From Geosiphon pyriformis (lineage: Eukaryota > Glomeromycota > Glomeromycetes > Archaeosporales > Geosiphonaceae): a stretch of DNA of 64,000 nucleotides. The notes under the pieces are model-generated. The model searched no databases and was not told where the DNA came from. It worked only from the letters and a program-made list of their open reading frames with translations. This document shows, one piece after another, positions 27,190-63,771 of the stretch. Both the position numbers and the translations under genes were made by a program. The first letter of the stretch is position 1. Each line of letters opens with the position of its first letter. The stretch is taken from assembly GCA_016748015.1 (NCBI GenBank), contig JAAOMT010000046.1, forward strand, positions 809,459 through 873,458. The letters run 5' to 3'.

Positions 27190-28921
27190 TCAAACTTTGA
27201 GATTTTTCAATTGTTTCATTTCCTCCTCTTCTTCCACCTCCTCTTCTCCTATCCAAACTTGTTCTTCCTCCTCTTCGTATGATTTAACCTCATACTTCTT
27301 ACCACGAATCCCAAAAATACCCCAATTAGCAAAAATATGTTCCCTCACATCTTGGATATTAACGTCTCGTTTTAAACTTCGAAAAGGATTTTCGCCAGGT
27401 TCCAACAACCAATCAAACTCATCTTTATGGTTTTCCTCCGAATTATTGTCATCCATATTCATATCAACTTTCACATTTTCCTCTTCAGGTTCATTTTCTT
27501 TCGATTTCATCCAACCCCCTTCTTCTAAAGCCCTCACATCTGTTTCCATATCCTGTTCATCATATCCAGTAATAAAAATAGCACATTTCGTGCCTAAAAT
27601 CCTTTTTATTGTTTTCCCCCAGAATTCTTTACCATTTAGCTGACCGAATCCAGGACTAAACAAGAAAAAAACGTCAGTATAAGGATCGAACGGTTTTAGG
27701 GTGTCATGATAATCAGTGTAATATTTGTCCGTCCAGGTGAATGACAGATTTGTGTTAAAATGTTTGGTTAAGGGCAGTTTTTCTTTCGGTGGTAATGCTT
27801 GGGGACCAATAAAGTGGATGTGAAAGGTAGTGTTGGGAAATAGATAGGAAATTTGTTGGTAGACCTCTGGTGGGAGTTGAGCTTCTGCACGTGCACCAAG
27901 AATTAATACGCGTATAACATCAAAAGGTCGAGCGCTTTGAAGATCTTGGGTGGTTTCTTGGATCGAGTAAATTGTATGCTTTAATGCTGAACCAAAAGTT
28001 GACAATATTTGGATAATGAAAGAATCAGCTTCAGATAAGAGATATTGCAGATTGTTAAAATTCCAATAGACTTTAAAAAATTGAAAAACCCCTATACCAA
28101 TTTGTGATTTCAATCCTTCACTGGTTAACCGATTGCGAAGCGTATAGGGTCCTGATTCGTGTAAAACCGACGCAATAGTAATCGGATATGTTAATGCTTT
28201 GCTTACATGGCGCATCGAACGTGCTTCATCTAAACTTGGAAAGCTACGCGTATAAAAAAAGGTATCCCAGTTCAGCATGTTGACCCGATAATCGTAATCC
28301 TGTTCAGCTTTGATATAGTTATACTTGAATAATCACGTGAGTGTTATTGCAAAGAAATTTGGAGGAAAATAAGTTGACAAAAAACTCACTGGGGAACACA
28401 AATTCCTTAATCTCCCGACCACTTCTCAAGTCATGCTCATCCTCGTTAGCCTCTCGTAGTCCAGAACATATTTTCTTGTGCTTTTCTAAATCCTGTTTAT
28501 AGTGTTGAGGGGAGCAGTGAGTGGGGTAACCACAGTCTGGACACTCGTAAATAGGACGCTTTTGGTCTTCTTTCTTTAGGTGTTCGACACACGTCGAACA
28601 CGTGCCATGATTATTTATAAGTTTTGCCCGTTCTTTTATGGCCGCAATCGGCGAGCGAGATAAAGGGTGAAAAAGATTATTGTTTTTGAGAATGGGTTCT
28701 GGTATGGCTTGTGGCGCCTCTTTGCGCGGAAATATTGTTTTAAGGGAAGCAAAAGGTCGCGTTACAGCTTCTGGTTGGACTCCAGCGGAAGCGGAATCCC
28801 TCGAGAGGGAAGTACTATTCCGTGTTTTAATTAGCTGAGTGATTTTCAAAGACCTAGGTTTTAACAAAAAACCTCTTTTAGGAAATGGTGTAATTGAATG
28901 TATGTTTCGTGGGAACATCAT
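27190..28921 (-). CDS. MSS51: Mss51, mitochondrial COX1 translation/assembly factor
   Basis: In yeast, Mss51 activates translation of mitochondrial COX1 mRNA and then chaperones the new Cox1 protein, linking synthesis to assembly. Exon 1 has a basic, Ser/Arg-rich N-terminus that fits a mitochondrial presequence (MMFPRNIHSITPFPKRGFLL). A MYND-like zinc finger follows: CSTCVEHL, YECPDCGYPTHCSPQHY, HKKICSGL. Then comes DEHDLRSGREIKEF. One intron (about 28292-28394) splices FP to TEQDYDYRVNMLNWDTFFYT. The second exon holds the Mss51 C-terminal domain with SMRHVSKALTYPITIASVL. The last 100 residues are unusually acidic (long Glu runs), an extension not conserved in yeast. The CP dipeptide in the finger resembles a haem regulatory motif. 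Confidence 0.93.
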
Positions 28922-29257
28922 TTGTTTTTTTTGAAAATTTCTCCAAGTCCATCTAACAGCCCATAATGTTTATGAGATTGTTCTAGAAGCATTTGTAGAT
29001 ATGCCTGAATTTGGCAACGTGAAGATCATAAAAAACCTAAAATTCAGGCTTGAATCGACTCAAATAAATTTAATGCTACCCTATGCTTTAAAAATTGTGT
29101 CTACAAATATCTCATTGTCCTGAATTATGTCACTTCACTTCTAAAAATTATGCTTCGTTCAACAATATATCAAAAAACCTAGAAAAGAAAATCAAAGATT
29201 AAAAAATCAAAGAAAATTAAATTTGCCCAAAAGTCAAATGTTTTTTTGGGGGTCGAC
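28922..29257. other. Intergenic, MSS51 promoter and uL4 3' end
   Basis: 335 bp between two minus-strand genes. No coding potential or RNA gene was seen. Confidence 0.6.
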
Positions 29258-30835
29258 TTACTTCTGAGTTTTATTTGTATCTTTTGCCTTGGATTTTTTC
29301 TTCACAATTTTCCCGGCCTTGCGTTTTTCCGTTGCAAGAATCTCCGCGCGTTTTAATACCTTGGCATAGGGATTAAGACGAATCAAAACCCCATTATTCT
29401 TCAATGGATTTTTCTTTTGTGTATATGGCCGCTTTTGATGTTTTTCTCCGGCTGGCCGGAGCACAGATTGAATTTTAGTAGAGTTAATGATTTGAGTAAC
29501 ATCAGTATTGGTGATGATATGTGATGGAAGGCTAAGGATAGAATTAGAATAAAAATCATTGTTAAAATAGAAAAAAAATGAGTATCATATTTAAATAATT
29601 CCATTTGCTTACCGATAATCTTTTTTAAGAGCGGCAGCTGTTTGGTAGGTGCCAAACAAATCATCTAACAAAGCAAAAGCGCCTTGCGACCAAATAATAA
29701 ATCTACCCAAATGACCTCCGGGAGCCAATAAAAGTAAATTCAAATGACGTACATTGACCAATTCCACCCCAGGAAGATTACGGAAAGCCTTAACGACACC
29801 ATGATCTTCGTTATAAACAATGAGAGGACCACGCCTTTGACGATGCCGCCGATTTCGCATTTTACCCTTACCCGCGCGCAATTTACGCGAATTAGAAACC
29901 TTTACGACATCGGTATAAGCATGAAAAGCTTTCAACAAGGCAACAGCAGCTTTGGTTTTTGCCAAGGATTCAATACCGTTTCCCACCACTAAGGGAATTT
30001 CTGAGATCTCCTCAATTCGGTGACCACGAGCCAAAACAAGTGGTGGAATAGCGGATGCCGCTAAAGCGGAAACTGTGGCGAACCTTTTTTGATTCAAGTT
30101 AGTCTTTACATGCCATTTACGCCAGATCTTGGTGGGAGCAAACATGCGACCACCACGACACATGTTACCAAAAGCACCCTAATCAATTTAAAAATTATAT
30201 TAAAGTTAAAAGCTCACCCAAATCATGGAAATAAAAATTACTAGTATACGATATTATAAAGTGATAAAAATGATTCTAAAAAGATGTTGAAGATATTTTA
30301 CCTGACCGGCACGATGAGTGCCACCCCCAGAAACACGCGGAATACGAGCAACAGCACGACCTGTTCCCCAAGATTCCGCGGATGTTTGGTGACCTGCTTT
30401 CTTTGAAACAGCATAAGGCTGACGCTTATTCTTGGCGATGTTGGTGTGAACGGATCTCACAATATCTGGACGTATAGGGGCTTTAAAAACTGCTGGGAGT
30501 TTATGTTGACTAATGGCAGTTCGTCCATCTTCCGAATAGATATTGATAGCTGGTCTGTTTACCACGGACTGATGTTTATAAGGTAATAAAATTTAAGACA
30601 AACAATAAATCACCAAAATTGAGCTAACTATCCAAAATATATTAGAGGGAGGTAATAAAATAAAATGATAGCTGAACAAGTTTTAAAAATACATAAAGTT
30701 TCCCAAGCTATTGCTCTGACTCAGAAAATATCAAGCAAAGATTAAAGCAGCACTTTTTTATACAAAGACAAATAATGATTGGATTGATGAGAAAAATAAT
30801 TGATGGATATTCTAATCTGTTTTAGAACTTACCAT
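29258..30835 (-). CDS. RPL4: 60S ribosomal protein L4 (uL4)
   Basis: Large-subunit protein whose loop lines the nascent-peptide exit tunnel. Exon 1 appears to be just the start codon: ATG directly followed by GTAAGT at 30832. After a 264-nt intron (30569-30832), exon 2 begins [16 protein letters not shown] and runs through [20 protein letters not shown], the conserved tunnel loop. Exon 3 (about 30180-29615) has [20 protein letters not shown] and [20 protein letters not shown], invariant in uL4. Exon 4 ends with a Lys-rich tail ([14 protein letters not shown]). All landmarks are intact. A start-codon-only first exon is common in ribosomal protein genes. Confidence 0.95.
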
Positions 30836-31168: not shown

Positions 31169-32633
31169 ATGGCAGGGAAAATTAATGTGATACAGTTGAA
31201 GGATTTTAGTAGTAGTAATTTCCGTGATACTTTTTCACAACCTCAGGAAGAGGTTTTGGCCATCTGCTTGACAAAGAGCCAAGCTACTAGTGATTCTAAT
31301 TCAAGTGGTTCCTTTGTTGGTGCGAGTAATGGCGAGTGCTATTATTACTCTACCTGTAAGTTTTTCATGTTATAAAAAGAACTTTGAGTTTCTTTGAAAT
31401 CCCCTCTTTTTGATTTTATTCTTCATCATTACAGTGGGCAAGAAGATCGGGTGGCGTTCCTGTGGGTATCATTTCTTTTCAATCATAAACCCTATACCCT
31501 ACATTATGCTAGGACATTATCGTCCTATCCTCTTCTTTATCTGTTTTGTTAGTTGATAAAACCTCTGATAGGAAATAATGTCCTTCATAATATTTACATC
31601 ATTTGTAAATAGGACATCACTTCGGAACTCTTATATAACACCACAAGAGACCTGCTGGCACTCAAAAGTGGCAGATTTGAGGAGCGACCTGGAGGTCTAA
31701 GTAATAGAGATGATGTTACGGAATCTAATGGGATAAATGAAAAAATTATCGACAGCAATAAGTCAATAAATTCTTTCAGCGCCGACAAAACACAAATTAA
31801 ATTCGTTGATCAAGTTTTTCGTAGTGGCACCCCACCAGCTCATATTGACACTCTTTTAACCATCGTTTCCACTCAACCGAAGTCTGAGTATGCATGGGAA
31901 GGTTTTGTAATGAACGGAACACTGTTTTTGAAAGGAAATGGTCTTGATAATGTGGACCTTAGGGAAAGGTAATTATTTATTTGCTTTCAGTTTTTAATTT
32001 TTTGATATTAAGAGAAGTTCCTTAAACTCTATATCGAGAATATGGGGGCCATCATTTTCCCTTTTTTTGAAATGCAATTACAAGTCTGGAGTTTAACACG
32101 TTATTTGACGATGTTCATTGGGTAGTGATTATGGTGATTGAGTTTGGAATTCTCTCCGTCTACAGTTATATTTTAAAATAGCATTCGGTCGTTCTTGTTC
32201 TCCAGGCTTTCATGATATTTGCTTTCAAATTTTGGGAATATGTGGCTCACATTTCTTCTAACAATTTTCTTTGCGTATGAAATTATTTGTACTTGCATTA
32301 TTTTTGTATTGCCCTTTCGCTATTGCCTTGCCTTTTTTTATCGTTGCAAACAACATAGTATTGTTGCCGTATTGGAACTTGCAGAAGAGTGCTTAAAGTG
32401 TCGATCTTTGGTTGTTTGTCTTGAAAAAAACGACCCTCAATTAGGTGAGTCGAGAGATTCTTTTATATGATTTTAATTTATTATCTTTTATATATGAACT
32501 AATATGACTTATTCGCTCAACCTTCAAAGCCAATCTCATTCGTACCTTCATGTATATTGGTTTTGAAACTTGCATTCCTAACATTTTTGATCACGATAAT
32601 GAGAGGTTCATGCTTGTTGGGATGGAATTGTAA
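31169..32633 (+). CDS. OAZ: Ornithine decarboxylase antizyme (+1 frameshifted)
   Basis: Antizyme binds ornithine decarboxylase and sends it to the proteasome when polyamines are high. Exons: 31169-31355, 31435-31461, 31613-31968, 32359 to about 32442 and the last one ending 32633. ORF1 is 71 codons (MAGKINVIQLKDF to GKKIGWRS) and ends at UGA formed across the second intron. ORF2 in the +1 frame starts DITSELLYNTTRDLLALKSG and carries the antizyme core: YAWEGFVMNGTLFLKG, LRESIVAVLELAEECLKC, SLVVCLEKNDPQLANLIR, FMYIGFETCIPNIFDHDNER. It ends LVGMEL. The conserved ORF2 and the canonical UCC-UGA site make the call strong. The GTGGGT donor of intron 2 is inferred; the nearby GTATCA donor would not give the site. 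Confidence 0.93.
31458..31614 (+). promoter_or_regulatory. Programmed +1 ribosomal frameshift site split by an intron
   Basis: The spliced mRNA reads UGG-CGU-UCC-UGA-C. UCC (31458-31460) is the last ORF1 codon. The U of UGA is base 31461 and the GA are bases 31613-31614, on the far side of the intron at 31462-31612. Shifting forward by one base after UCC reads GAC-AUC-ACU and enters the antizyme core frame. UCC-UGA is the standard antizyme shift site in animals and most fungi, where polyamines stimulate shifting. In the unspliced transcript the same place reads UCC-UGU-GGG, with no stop, so shifting should not occur. Confidence 0.85.
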
Positions 32634-32905: not shown

Positions 32906-33536
32906 TTAGGAATTCATAATTTTGGCAAGACTATTGTTTAAAGGAAATACGTTAGAAATTTTTTGGAAAAAAAACTCGCCTACAAATGACTCACCATTAT
33001 ATTTAGTATGCTGACCCGTTGCGACTATGTTACTTGTTTGAGTATTACGAATAACTGTGGTTGTTTTCGCAAGATTTTTGCCGATTTTAATTAAAGTGCA
33101 CTCCACACTAATATTATCACCGTTTTTCGCGGGTGAAACATAAGAGATTGTGAGATCAATTGAGACCCCAATCCAGCCATTTTTCTTGCCTAAGATAAGA
33201 AGATATCAATATAGATGATCAAGGTAAATTTCTTTAACAAAATAGTAAATGGCAATAGTTGAATTTGTGTGTTTGAATTTTAAAATATCACACAGCACCG
33301 TATTGTGTTGCGCTTGATAAGCTATCAATAATAGTCGCGATAAATCCACCATGCAAGGTTCCCATAGGGTTACACTCCTCTTGGGTAACGTCTATTTCGA
33401 ATACACATTGCCTCTCGTTCGCCGAAACTACGCGAACACGTCTCCAAAAATCGTTCATAAAATGTGGAATCTTTGCTATCATAAGAAGGTGGCTTTCGAC
33501 ACGTGCTTTTGGAGTCTCTAAGTCTATGTAGGGCAT
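32906..33536 (-). CDS. Hot-dog fold acyl-CoA thioesterase (ACOT13/PaaI-like)
   Basis: Likely hydrolyses acyl-CoA esters. Exon 1 starts MPYIDLETPKARVESHLLMI and holds the hot-dog active-site segment NPMGTLHGGFIATIIDSLSS. A GT-AG intron (about 33190-33295) joins it to GKKNGWIGVSIDLTISYVSP and SNIVATGQHTKYN, the conserved last strand. The frame is open to 33608 but its only ATG-type start is at 33536. The 3' end is uncertain: reading on gives a stop at 32906, while a GTGAGT donor and AACAATAG acceptor would give a short tail (VLPKL) with the stop at 32914-32916. The start lies only about 160 bp from an inserted LTR, which may have replaced its upstream promoter. Confidence 0.82.
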
Positions 33537-33698
33537 GATTCGAAGAAGGAAATGAAGAATTATTGTGGCGAATATTTCAAGTGCCTCGCCATTAAATGAT
33601 GAATTCACGCTAGTTTATGCTGCTTGCAGATCGGCTGTATGAAGTATGAGTTTTTCCCAAAAATTTAAAAGAATTTCCAACTCTACTAGTCAAGATAG

Positions 33699-47104: not shown

Positions 47105-49170
47105 TCATTGAAATATAATACTTGCTGCCAAATCTGGATTACCACCTGCCAGATCTAAGAGTTCAATGGCTTCTTCCCGAGGTATCCCTAGAGATACCAA
47201 TTTTTGAATGTCTGGCTCTGGATATTTTGATTGACCTGTTGGGGTTTTTGAATTAAATATATAAGATGTTTTATTCCAAACGTTGCTGAAATTAGGACAA
47301 GTTTTCTTACCACTAGGAAGGTTAGACGTCGCCGAATTGGGATTATTACTAGATATTGAGCGCGCTGCCGATGGTGCTATGCTGCTGCTGCTGCTGCTGC
47401 TACTACTGCTATTCGTAGCATTTATAAGACCCAAAGATCCTGGAGGAGCGATTATATCTTCGTCAGTGAGCTCATCAGTACGTGCATGTTCCGGCAATTC
47501 GTGTTCCGGTAAAAATGGTATTTCTTTTCCGTTAATAATTAACGCATTCTTTCTCAGATCAATGCACGCCTTAAAAATGAAAATGGGTAAATCATGATAA
47601 ACTTTTAAATCGTAAAGAACCCAAATATCCATAAACTTGCCTGGTGACGTTTTAACATGTCCAACCCGAATAATAAATCGACTCCACGACCCTATTAATA
47701 CATTGAATAGCTGGTTTACTGAATCAACGCAGTGTATACAAAGTAATCGAAATAAATATAAAAAATGAAATACCTCCATTATTGTAAAAGAACAAGCTAA
47801 AAATAAATCAAGGCCAATTCGAATGTGCGCACTGTGTACACGACCAAGTATTTTTGCAGTACCAACTCCTTTAGCAATTCCAGCAAACCTTTTGTCTACT
47901 AGACGCATAATCCTAAAGGATATTGATTATTTCCCTCGTCAATCATTATGACTATTTGATACTATGCTCCTGAGAAAATAAAAACAAAAGCTAGATACCC
48001 GCATGTTTCGGCACATCTAGGGCTCACTTATAAGTTTATTATAAAAAGTCTTGCTTAATCAATCGAAAGAATTTTCAAAATAACAAGAAAACGGGAAATA
48101 ATTTTGACAAGCTTACATACTGATAGTTGCTTGAGCACCAGAATCGACAAATGCTTTAATTGGACGTCCATTTACTTCCGCATCAATATATAACATAGTA
48201 ACCTAATTGAATAAATTCCTTGTAAGATGAAATGGGAATAATAAAAGGAAATATTGAAAAATAATATTTTAAAAAAATATACTCTTCCAAATGACTCTGG
48301 ATTATACTCTAGTGCGGCCTCCAGATTGGCCGTGACGTTTTCTTGCCTTATTGCCTCCTCGATTCGTCGCTGTGCTTCAATATCAAAAGGATCGGCGTTG
48401 AGAATGTTCTAGGAACGAGATAAATTTAGTCAATTTTTTATCAAACACGATTAATGAATAAAAACTTACAATTTGTTGCATTCTCTGTCTTTCTGCCTCT
48501 TGCCTTCGTTGCTCCATCTGTCTGATTAAAACTGCAAACCTTGCTGGATCATTTAAAGCGGAATTGGCAAGTTCAGGTTGTGTCTAAGATCACAAGCAGT
48601 CCAGATGGAATCTTTGATTACTAATTTTTTCATTTTCTCATAGATGAATCCATCAGTTCTGACAGTGTTATCACTACCTGGAGTAACTGCTGGAGAAGTG
48701 CGGGCTGATTAAGTATGTGTTGTCGCATTTGTTCAACCTCAGGGCCTCCACTGCAAAAAACAAGTGGTTTAATCCCTGTGAACAGTTGATAAATGACGTA
48801 GTTTTTAATTAATCGGTGAACTTAACACTCACTGAACACCCCTTGGAGATGGTGCTCTGGTATTAGAAGGTCGTCTCCGAAGCATTAAGATGCTATCCTG
48901 AATAACCCCATACTGTTCCAAAGTTTTCATTGGGTCTGTCAACTCATTCCCGTTAAATGCAAGGATTTGTTCAGAAGTTGGAGTACCGGTCTGAAAAGAC
49001 AAATCATGAAGAATTGAAAATAGTTGCTAAGTATAAACCAACATTACTCCCACTAGACCATTCTCCCATACCTCGACCTCTATCAAAGCCTTGACGTTTT
49101 CCAACTCGATTTGCGAATCAACTTCGACGTTGTGAAGTTCACCTGCTTCATTACTTATGGTTATTCTCAT
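47105..49170 (-). CDS. DDI1: Ddi1, ubiquitin-shuttle aspartic protease
   Basis: Links ubiquitinated proteins to the proteasome and carries a retropepsin fold. Exon 1 starts the ubiquitin-like domain ([20 protein letters not shown]), continuing [16 protein letters not shown] and [11 protein letters not shown] helical region follows ([20 protein letters not shown]). The protease domain shows [19 protein letters not shown] near 48110-48180, with the catalytic DSG intact, and then [20 protein letters not shown]. The last exon ends in a UBA domain ([34 protein letters not shown]). A Ser run encoded by AGC repeats (near 47383-47415) lies in the linker before it. All three domains are present. Confidence 0.95.
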
Positions 49171-61442: not shown

Positions 61443-63771
61443 TTTGTTTTTGCGATTTAATTATTGTGTTCGAGATGAATTCTTGATATTTTGCCAATAA
61501 ATCGAATGAATTCCTGATATCTATGTAATAGAAATGATATAATCTTTTCACGAAGGGAGAGTTGAATATATGAAACTTGCTACTAGGAATAGAATTTATA
61601 ATGAAATCAATTAAACGCCCATTGTTTGCTGGAAATTATGTTAGAAAAATGATGTGAATAAAGATTTCGATCATGATTAGCCCTTAAATAGCCAAAAGGA
61701 TTGGTAAACTTTTTTAGAAGAGAATGAGAATGAGAATGATTAATAATCTTTTTAAAATTTAGGTTTTCAATTGCATTAAAGTTGTCTTGATGAATAATCA
61801 AGTTTTTCTAAAAAAGTGATAAGACGTTTGGGAAAAATGTCCGATGAAGCAAGAATTTTCCGAGATTTCCAGGGAAGTGATATAATACGATGATCTAGTT
61901 CAGGTTCATTTGCCCTTAATTGAACTCAAAATAGCTTTTCAATGGAAGCAATTTTAATGGTTTAAAATTCATAAAAGGTCTAGATATTAATTAAATATTG
62001 TTCACAATAAATAAAATAATTGAAATAATAAAATTTAAAATATATTTTAATTAGTTGGTATTATTATTTTTATTTTTATAAGAATTTACTTTTTTAAAAA
62101 AAAATAAAAATTAGTAAAAATAAAAATATTTTTTCAATAATAATATACAATTTTGTTGTTTTTAATTACAAAATAGCTGTTAATTCCTTGTGTAAATAGT
62201 TTAAGTTTGGCTCTTTTGTCATTATGTCCATTTTGTCTGGTTTTGTTGCTATTGTAGTAACATGCTCCATATAGTAGTTTTAAAAGATAATAAAATAATA
62301 CATGTACTTTAGAGGCTGAATAACTGGTTTTATTACTTAAAGCTAGAACCCAAAAACATGTTTCCCATGCAATAGTAGGGAATTACCCGTTCTACATTAA
62401 TTCAATTCATAGTTCAGTTTCTTTGTAAAACACAAAATGATTATAGTTTTGATGTAAAGCAATGAAAAATACCATCATGTTGGGAAAATTTTTCCTTTTG
62501 CGAAAGAAATGATCATTGTTAATCTTTTTTAATTTTATTAATTGCGCAAGATTTTTTAATATAAATAGATATTAAAACATGATAATTTAAATCAAAAAAT
62601 CTGCGCTAAATATAAATTTTCAAAAAGTCTTAATTTCGAAAGATTTATCAAAATCCATTTCCAAAACAAGCCAATTTTTTTTAAATACTGTCACATTTTT
62701 CTTTCTTTTTATTATTATTAACCACTATATCATTATAAAAGATATCATGTTCAGAAAACTGGTAATTTGATTGGATCACCATTTCTATCTTATCTTATAT
62801 TAATAGAACTTCAAAATCGATACGTTTTTATCCAAAAATAGGCTCTTTCACATGTAATATTCAATCAAAAAATTAAAACCTCTTTTTTTTCATGAAAAAT
62901 ATATAAAGGAAAAAAGATAATTATTCAAGTTTTATTTTTATTTGTATTTGTATTTGTATTTGTATTTGTATTTGTATTTGTATTTGTGTAAACAATGTGC
63001 AATAATATTTTTGAATATCATAAATTTGTTTAAATACAATTATTTTTGGCAATTCAAATAAATTTTATAATTATTTTTTTAATCAAAACAATCAAACAAA
63101 AAATGCAAAATTTAACTCTATAAATTTGAGACAAATAAATAAAGTATCGTGGCAAAATTAATTTGCGTGTGAGAATAAGACACCATTTTCTTCCTTGTAC
63201 AAACGGCATTTTATACAAATTATTAACTTTGCCACAATACCTCCATTGCCAAAATACCCCCTTTTACCTTTTAATATGAAAACCAAACCAATTTTTTTCT
63301 TGTTTGTTAAAAATTCTTTTGTAAAAAGTTGAATAACCTAAAATCTAAAACTGTGAATACCAAAACAGTGAATCCTTTATGAGGCAGAAAATTTGTTGAG
63401 ACTGTTATAATTATGCATGATTTGTAGTTTCGAATATACTGAATGATTGCTTATATTTTGTCTTATGAAGATAATCACATTGATAGATTTTTACACCCAA
63501 GATTAATGATAGCATTTACATCAATTTGAAAAGTAATAATAAAAAACCACTAATCCTTCGATACTTTGAAATCTGTATCATTCCCTAATTCCAAAAACCT
63601 GGGATATATTTATACAAACAATAAGGAAACAAATATAAAAAGAAGGCTAAAATTTCTCAAAATAGTTGGTATCTTATTAAATTTAAATTGCCTCGTACTC
63701 TCAGTGTTTACTTGAATAGAATGATTGACCAGCCGCTAATTTGGCATGGTTTTATATCTTGGTTTTTCTGT
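61443..63771. other. Gene-poor AT-rich region
   Basis: 2.3 kb between RCF2 and a partial gene. A minus-strand frame at 61607-61801 (ending SNIISSKQWAFN) has no recognisable family and is probably chance. The remainder is AT-rich with one hexanucleotide repeat block. No RNA gene was seen. Confidence 0.65.
62935..62987. repeat. (TTTGTA)n hexanucleotide minisatellite
   Basis: About eight perfect tandem hexamers. Confidence 0.95.

Follow-up and report, generated by a model that had tools for sequence, protein, structure and literature searches.

Antizyme is a polyamine sensor whose expression requires ribosomes to pass over a single base where they meet a stop codon; the protein inhibits ornithine decarboxylase, and it is a classic cellular example of regulated +1 frameshifting. 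Eukaryotic antizyme genes (the OAZ family, Pfam ODC_AZ) have two open reading frames (ORFs), a +1 shift at UCC-UGA, a UGG codon two codons upstream and a C-terminal antizyme domain. According to a review, most antizymes, by a substantial majority, use UCC_UGA, and the UGG two codons upstream is strongly conserved (PMC5009743). Here we describe an antizyme gene with these features in the fungus Geosiphon pyriformis, within a stretch of 64,000 nucleotides (assembly GCA_016748015.1, contig JAAOMT010000046.1, forward-strand positions 809,459 to 873,458), hereafter the window, whose numbering is used throughout. In this gene the UGA of the predicted shift site is divided by a predicted intron: the U is the last base of exon 2, and GA are the first bases of exon 3.

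We consider it probable that this is the antizyme gene of the fungus, that its pre-mRNA is spliced at 31462/31613, and that splicing builds UGG-CGU-UCC-UGA-C, where the known polyamine-stimulated +1 shift then occurs. The most likely explanation of the locus is ordinary splicing and, after it, frameshifting of the known kind; the data can be accounted for without regulated splicing.

Antizyme gene and shift site

The gene occupies 31169-32633 on the plus strand and has five predicted exons, whose limits and frames were checked by script. Its product matches the Pfam ODC_AZ profile at 53.6 bits (cut-off 24.2), and four antizyme 1 chains were matched in the PDB with E values of 1.3e-5 to 2.1e-5; both searches were run on a typed copy of the protein that carries one extra glycine. 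Exon 1 (31169-31355, 187 nt) holds codons 1-62 of ORF1 and the first base of codon 63, and is separated by intron 1 (31356-31434, 79 nt, GTAAGT...TTACAG, phase 1) from exon 2 (31435-31461, 27 nt, symmetric phase 1-1), which supplies the end of codon 63, the residues GKKIGWRS and the U of UGA. Intron 2 (31462-31612, 151 nt, GTGGGT...AAATAG), predicted from sequence, cuts the shift-site UGA after the U; its borders read CCT/GTGGGT at the donor and AAATAG/GAC at the acceptor. Exon 3 (31613-31968, 356 nt) begins with the GA of UGA and continues in the +1 frame into the antizyme core. It is followed by intron 3 (31969-32358, 390 nt, GTAATT...ACATAG), exon 4 (32359-32444, 86 nt, (S)IVAVLELAEECLKCRSLVVCLEKNDPQL), intron 4 (32445-32529, 85 nt, GTGAGT...TCAAAG) and exon 5 (32530-32633, (A)NLIRTFMYIGFE...), which includes the stop codon and the end of the antizyme domain. 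Coding scores of exons 1 to 4 were +0.24 to +0.66 bits per codon, with 0.24 for exon 1 and 0.66 for the nine codons of exon 2, and the score of exon 5 was about zero (0.01 bits per codon).

The gene model, its frames and its shift-site context can be read from the sequence itself. ORF1 comprises 71 codons followed by UGA in frame 0 of the predicted mRNA; TCCTGAC starts at mRNA position 211, also in frame 0, and dropping one base yields a product of 252 amino acids. Translation of the predicted mRNA places the stop at the end of ORF1 and the core in the +1 frame, as in an antizyme. The spliced context is UGG-CGU-UCC-UGA-C, with UGG as the second codon upstream, as in other antizymes. The first-pass annotation, made from the DNA letters, had claimed that the ORF1 end reads TCC-TGT-GGG in the genome, without a stop, that excision of 31462-31612 creates UCC-UGA-C and leads the +1 frame into the core, and that 187 nt plus 27 nt give 71 codons and the U of UGA while the 356-nt exon keeps phase with the one after it. 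A scripted reading of the frames bore all of this out, and the splice and coding scores described below support it. The further claim that retention of intron 2 would leave no shift site and no antizyme also agrees with the sequence, in which ORF1 would run on for 31 further codons before stopping at a TGA whose last base is 31556.

The shift motif was also assessed by its frequency. TGGNNNTCCTGT was found twice on the two strands of the 64-kb window against 0.23 expected; for the 257 bases of 31356-31612 on one strand, the expectation is about 5e-4 by our arithmetic, before phase and the following GA are taken into account. The genome as a whole holds 142 copies of the uninterrupted form TGGNNNTCCTGAYNT, versus 24 of the reversed control, and hence the motif by itself is not diagnostic. 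As regards a 3' RNA stimulator such as a pseudoknot, plain secondary structure computed for the 60 nt 3' of the shift site gave -11.6 kcal/mol.

The gene appears to be single copy as far as found: among the best candidates scored in the 124.7-Mb genome, neither a second ODC_AZ or antizyme-like place nor a paralogue for comparison was found. Two adjacent matches to Orn_Arg_deC_N lie at one locus in the genome; this family also holds other decarboxylases, and the locus is presumably the ornithine decarboxylase that antizyme would be expected to target.

Choice of the splice junction

To rank junctions, exon 1 and the 5' boundary of exon 2 were held fixed, and 120 GT/AG pairs were tried with donors at 31440-31599 and acceptors up to 31760. 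The core frame was kept by 57 of them, 30 as direct fusions and 27 via a +1 shift. At the top of these 57 stood 31462/31613, with a splice score of 8.2 and a splice-plus-coding score of 26.2. Neither score takes the shift site into account. Only two of the 120 pairs form UCC-UGA and then reach the core by +1, namely 31462/31613 and 31462/31682, and the latter would delete 23 codons whose score, 4.6 bits, is that of coding sequence.

The splice model draws on 41 introns that lie in chaperonin, proteasome and decarboxylase genes in the same genome. The first 31 came from 46 of 47 chaperonin matches (the lone match on C348 was omitted), which gave 37 neighbouring pairs; five were skipped for distance or a profile gap, and 31 of the remaining 32 were resolved. 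Ten introns were added from 22 of 27 proteasome matches (L048, L057, L060, L064 and L066 omitted) and both decarboxylase matches, where three of 13 pairs were skipped and 10 of 10 were resolved. In the 41-intron model, donor 31462 scores 4.1 bits, a value that 6 of the 41 reference donors do not exceed, and the acceptor of intron 2 scores 4.1 bits, which 14 of the 41 reference acceptors do not exceed. The donor is thus below average, and both sites fall within the local range for a GT-AG intron. Rival donors at 31466 and 31548 score 2.3 and 3.65 bits, respectively.

Structure of intron 2

The predicted fold of intron 2 is unusual. Its energy is -38.8 kcal/mol (z -6.6), and 0 of 1000 dinucleotide shuffles were as stable. 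Fold z-scores of reference introns were computed for the first 31, all from chaperonin genes, and ranged from -2.5 to 1.6 with 100 shuffles each; within the antizyme gene, introns 1 and 4 lie at about 0 and intron 3 at -2.75. Among 151-base stretches of the window on both strands, 102 of 5108 fold as well as intron 2. When only stretches of similar base composition are considered, 4 of 1592 do so, two of which are the intron 2 locus on the other strand. The sole other place among these 1592 that folds as strongly is 63101-63276 on the minus strand.

The fold includes a predicted long hairpin at 31503-31591 on the plus strand, with arms at 31503-31541 and 31555-31591 and 29 pairs interrupted by bulges and internal loops. 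Three AGs that precede the real acceptor lie within this hairpin, and two of them would make UCC-UGA too but miss the core. One of these cryptic AGs lies in the stem at 31511-31512 on the plus strand; joined to donor 31462, it would give UCC-UGA-C with no route to the core. The octamer TAGGACAT stands both at 31510-31517, around this AG, and at 31610-31617, around the real acceptor, so both sites would make UCC-UGA-CAU. The loop holds a rival donor, GTTAGT at 31548-31553 on the plus strand, which with acceptor 31613 would place ORF1 and the core in a single frame, so that no frameshift is needed.

Intron 2 is longer than all 41 reference introns (63-129 nt). Looping out the hairpin would remove 89 of its 151 nt and leave 62 nt, next to the 63-129 nt of the references. 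No copy of intron 2 was found elsewhere in the genome: it matches only itself at E <= 1 in a search that skips very common words. An origin from a repeat or mobile element is not supported, given this self-match and a single further place, with two mismatches, for a 19-base arm.

A pathway consistent with these features may be proposed as follows. Nuclear removal of intron 2 at 31462/31613 would assemble the canonical shift site. Ribosomes would then stop after 71 codons or, at high polyamine, skip one base to make the 252-residue antizyme that inhibits ornithine decarboxylase. We infer the use of this junction, the polyamine-stimulated frameshifting and any role of the hairpin; the hairpin may loop out 89 nt and bypass the three upstream AGs, steering the choice to the last AG.

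Evidence against the proposed junction

Several observations weigh against splicing at 31462/31613 as proposed. The margin of the junction is small, the second pair, 31466/31648 (a direct fusion), scoring 24.7, or 1.5 bits lower. In the 31-intron model, donor 31462 (0.8) falls under 31466 (2.1) and 31548 (3.5), so the margin is soft; in that model, only one reference donor was as low. The view that 31462 is the weakest donor was dropped with the 41-intron set. The real acceptor scored 2.6 against 5.1, 4.6 and 4.7 for the three cryptic AGs, a comparison made in the 31-intron model only. The reference introns were themselves selected by a splice model and are therefore biased to strong sites. 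A branch-point motif was not recovered from either the 31 or the 41 introns, for which the motif search gave a T-rich motif only.

The fold also raises doubts. With flanking exons (31435-31660), it becomes less exceptional (z -2.6, 2 of 200 shuffles as stable). Across five contexts, donor 31462 is predicted to be unpaired at only 4 to 27% and the real AG at 7 to 40%; for the three cryptic AG stretches the corresponding figures are 37-50%, 82-84% and 0-1%. The predicted fold gives the productive sites no clear advantage. In yeast introns, stems have been proposed to bring the 3' splice site closer, and structure is more frequent around cryptic sites and scarcer at canonical ones (PMC12350175), whereas the donor and real AG of intron 2 are predicted to be mostly paired.

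Codons 63-66 (LGKK) are unlike the G/P-rich stretch tabulated upstream of most shift sites, and G/P-rich residues at codons 8 to 5 upstream, which are typical of antizymes and not defining, are absent here. Examples tabulated in PMC5009743 include GPGP, VPGP and SGGP, and antizyme 3 departs from them as well (PCSC, PRSC). Finally, no relatives were found: of 62 pattern matches in a prokaryote contig collection and 8 in a viral one, 0 were confirmed. Collections of such content could hardly be expected to yield any.

Regulated splicing and alternative isoforms

Splicing of intron 2 could act as a second gate on antizyme expression, as the first-pass annotation suggested for polyamine feedback, if structure made its removal inefficient or condition-dependent (e.g., sensitive to polyamines, ions or temperature), with unspliced or mis-spliced mRNA giving no antizyme. 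Such a gate merits testing in view of the strong fold (z -6.6), which the first-pass annotation left unmentioned, and of a donor that scores below average (4.1 bits, with 6 of the 41 reference donors as low or lower). The donor and real acceptor are largely paired in the predicted fold, the 151 nt of intron 2 exceed the 63-129 nt of all 41 references, and, of its four AGs, three would yield UCC-UGA while only the last reaches the core. However, any coding-region intron is required in the same sense, and the gene's intron 3, at 390 nt, is longer still and has some structure too (z -2.75). A literature search found no paper that brings polyamines and spermidine together with splice sites and intron retention in fungi. 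We regard a gate as unlikely.

A stronger form of this idea would make intron 2 a structural switch. In the modelled fold, the productive donor is hidden and the rival at 31548 is presented, and nuclear RNA structure, possibly set by polyamine, might choose among a frameshift-dependent mRNA, a frameshift-independent fusion and no antizyme. If so, polyamine feedback would gain a splicing layer ahead of the ribosomal one. We give this switch a slightly lower chance than the gate.

It is improbable that a single-frame mRNA is made, alone or beside the frameshift form, in which ORF1 is fused to the core by 31548/31613 (29 extra residues) or 31466/31648 and antizyme is produced without frameshifting. 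The first of these junctions defines a 65-nt intron and a direct fusion with a splice score of 7.7 vs 8.2, and its donor is predicted to be 86-87% unpaired as opposed to 4-27% for 31462; the 86 bases that it adds, however, score like intron, their -0.54 bits per codon lying within the -0.78 to -0.23 of 13 overlapping intron windows free of stops. The second junction is second-best on splice plus coding (24.7 vs 26.2), but its splice score is weak (5.5 vs 8.2) and its intron would be 182 nt. Direct fusion occurs in 30 of the 120 pairs and is hence common by chance. The exact UGG-NNN-UCC-UGA would have to be a coincidence if the mRNA were fused.

Slightly less credible still is exon 2 as a regulated cassette, with inclusion giving UCC-UGA, and skipping giving ACC-UGA, loss of the peptide just upstream and altered frameshift efficiency. 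Its 27 nt in phase 1-1 and the CCT that ends both exons 1 and 2 would permit this, and skipping would preserve the frame and leave ACC-UGA-C. Least probable is the joining of donor 31466, the alternative named in the first-pass annotation, to 31613, which forms no UCC-UGA. This donor, GTATCATTT, is close to the U12-type consensus, GTATCCTTT, being one mismatch away. Although Rhizophagus irregularis is reported to have 205 predicted minor introns (PMC10639083), near matches in the window are as common as in shuffles (19 found vs 22.5 expected) and the pair gives no route to the core; U12-type splicing at 31466 is not supported.

Neighbouring genes

Upstream of the antizyme gene lie an MSS51-like gene (27190-28969, minus strand) made of two overlapping open frames (zf-Mss51 and MSS51_C) and an open frame of the ribosomal protein L4/L1 family (29609-30178, minus strand). 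A thioesterase-like gene at 32906-33614 on the minus strand (4HBT, 27.9 bits over 32909-33205) is convergent with the antizyme gene and lies 272 bases beyond its stop; its upstream part, the open frame 33288-33614, has no Pfam match alone. An aspartyl protease domain (PF09668, 54.1 bits) was found in an open frame of 273 amino acids at 47105-47926 on the minus strand. Also noted in the genome was a small-subunit rRNA locus (L069 801-2617), the one place that a primer matched at up to 2 mismatches; its fit to primers for mycorrhizal fungi is partial (AML1 with 1 mismatch, AML2 with 1 and AM1 with 4), which by itself speaks neither for nor against Glomeromycotina.

Comparison with known systems

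Among the matches listed from literature on antizyme, introns and their structure, fungi, Rhizophagus splicing and polyamines, no intron inside an antizyme shift codon is described, a statement that does not extend to the principal survey (Ivanov and Atkins 2007) or to the two papers that the same group published in 2000. A shift codon assembled by the spliceosome amounts to a recoding signal that genomic DNA does not reveal, and scans of unspliced DNA would miss such an antizyme shift site. The locus offers a clean test of coupling between nuclear RNA processing and ribosomal recoding. If the structured intron is regulated, it would add a second layer of polyamine feedback; if it is not, the gene still has an unusual architecture and should make annotators wary.

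Structured Saccharomyces cerevisiae introns with downstream stems resemble intron 2 in having a stem that possibly shortens the path to the 3' splice site and overlies cryptic sites (PMC12350175). Intron 2 differs from them in that its fold is only predicted and places the canonical sites in largely paired regions. Among fungal antizymes, that of Ganoderma lucidum (GlAZ) likewise has a frameshift together with a GT-AG intron in one model of its gene, and its shift sequence, unlike the one described here, is given as TTTGA (PMC9604110). The Drosophila antizyme gene Oda also carries a +1 shift in a gene with more than one exon. Compared with eukaryotic antizyme genes in general, with which it shares its two ORFs, shift site and antizyme domain, the G. 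pyriformis gene differs in that the stop codon of its shift site is broken by an intron after the first base.
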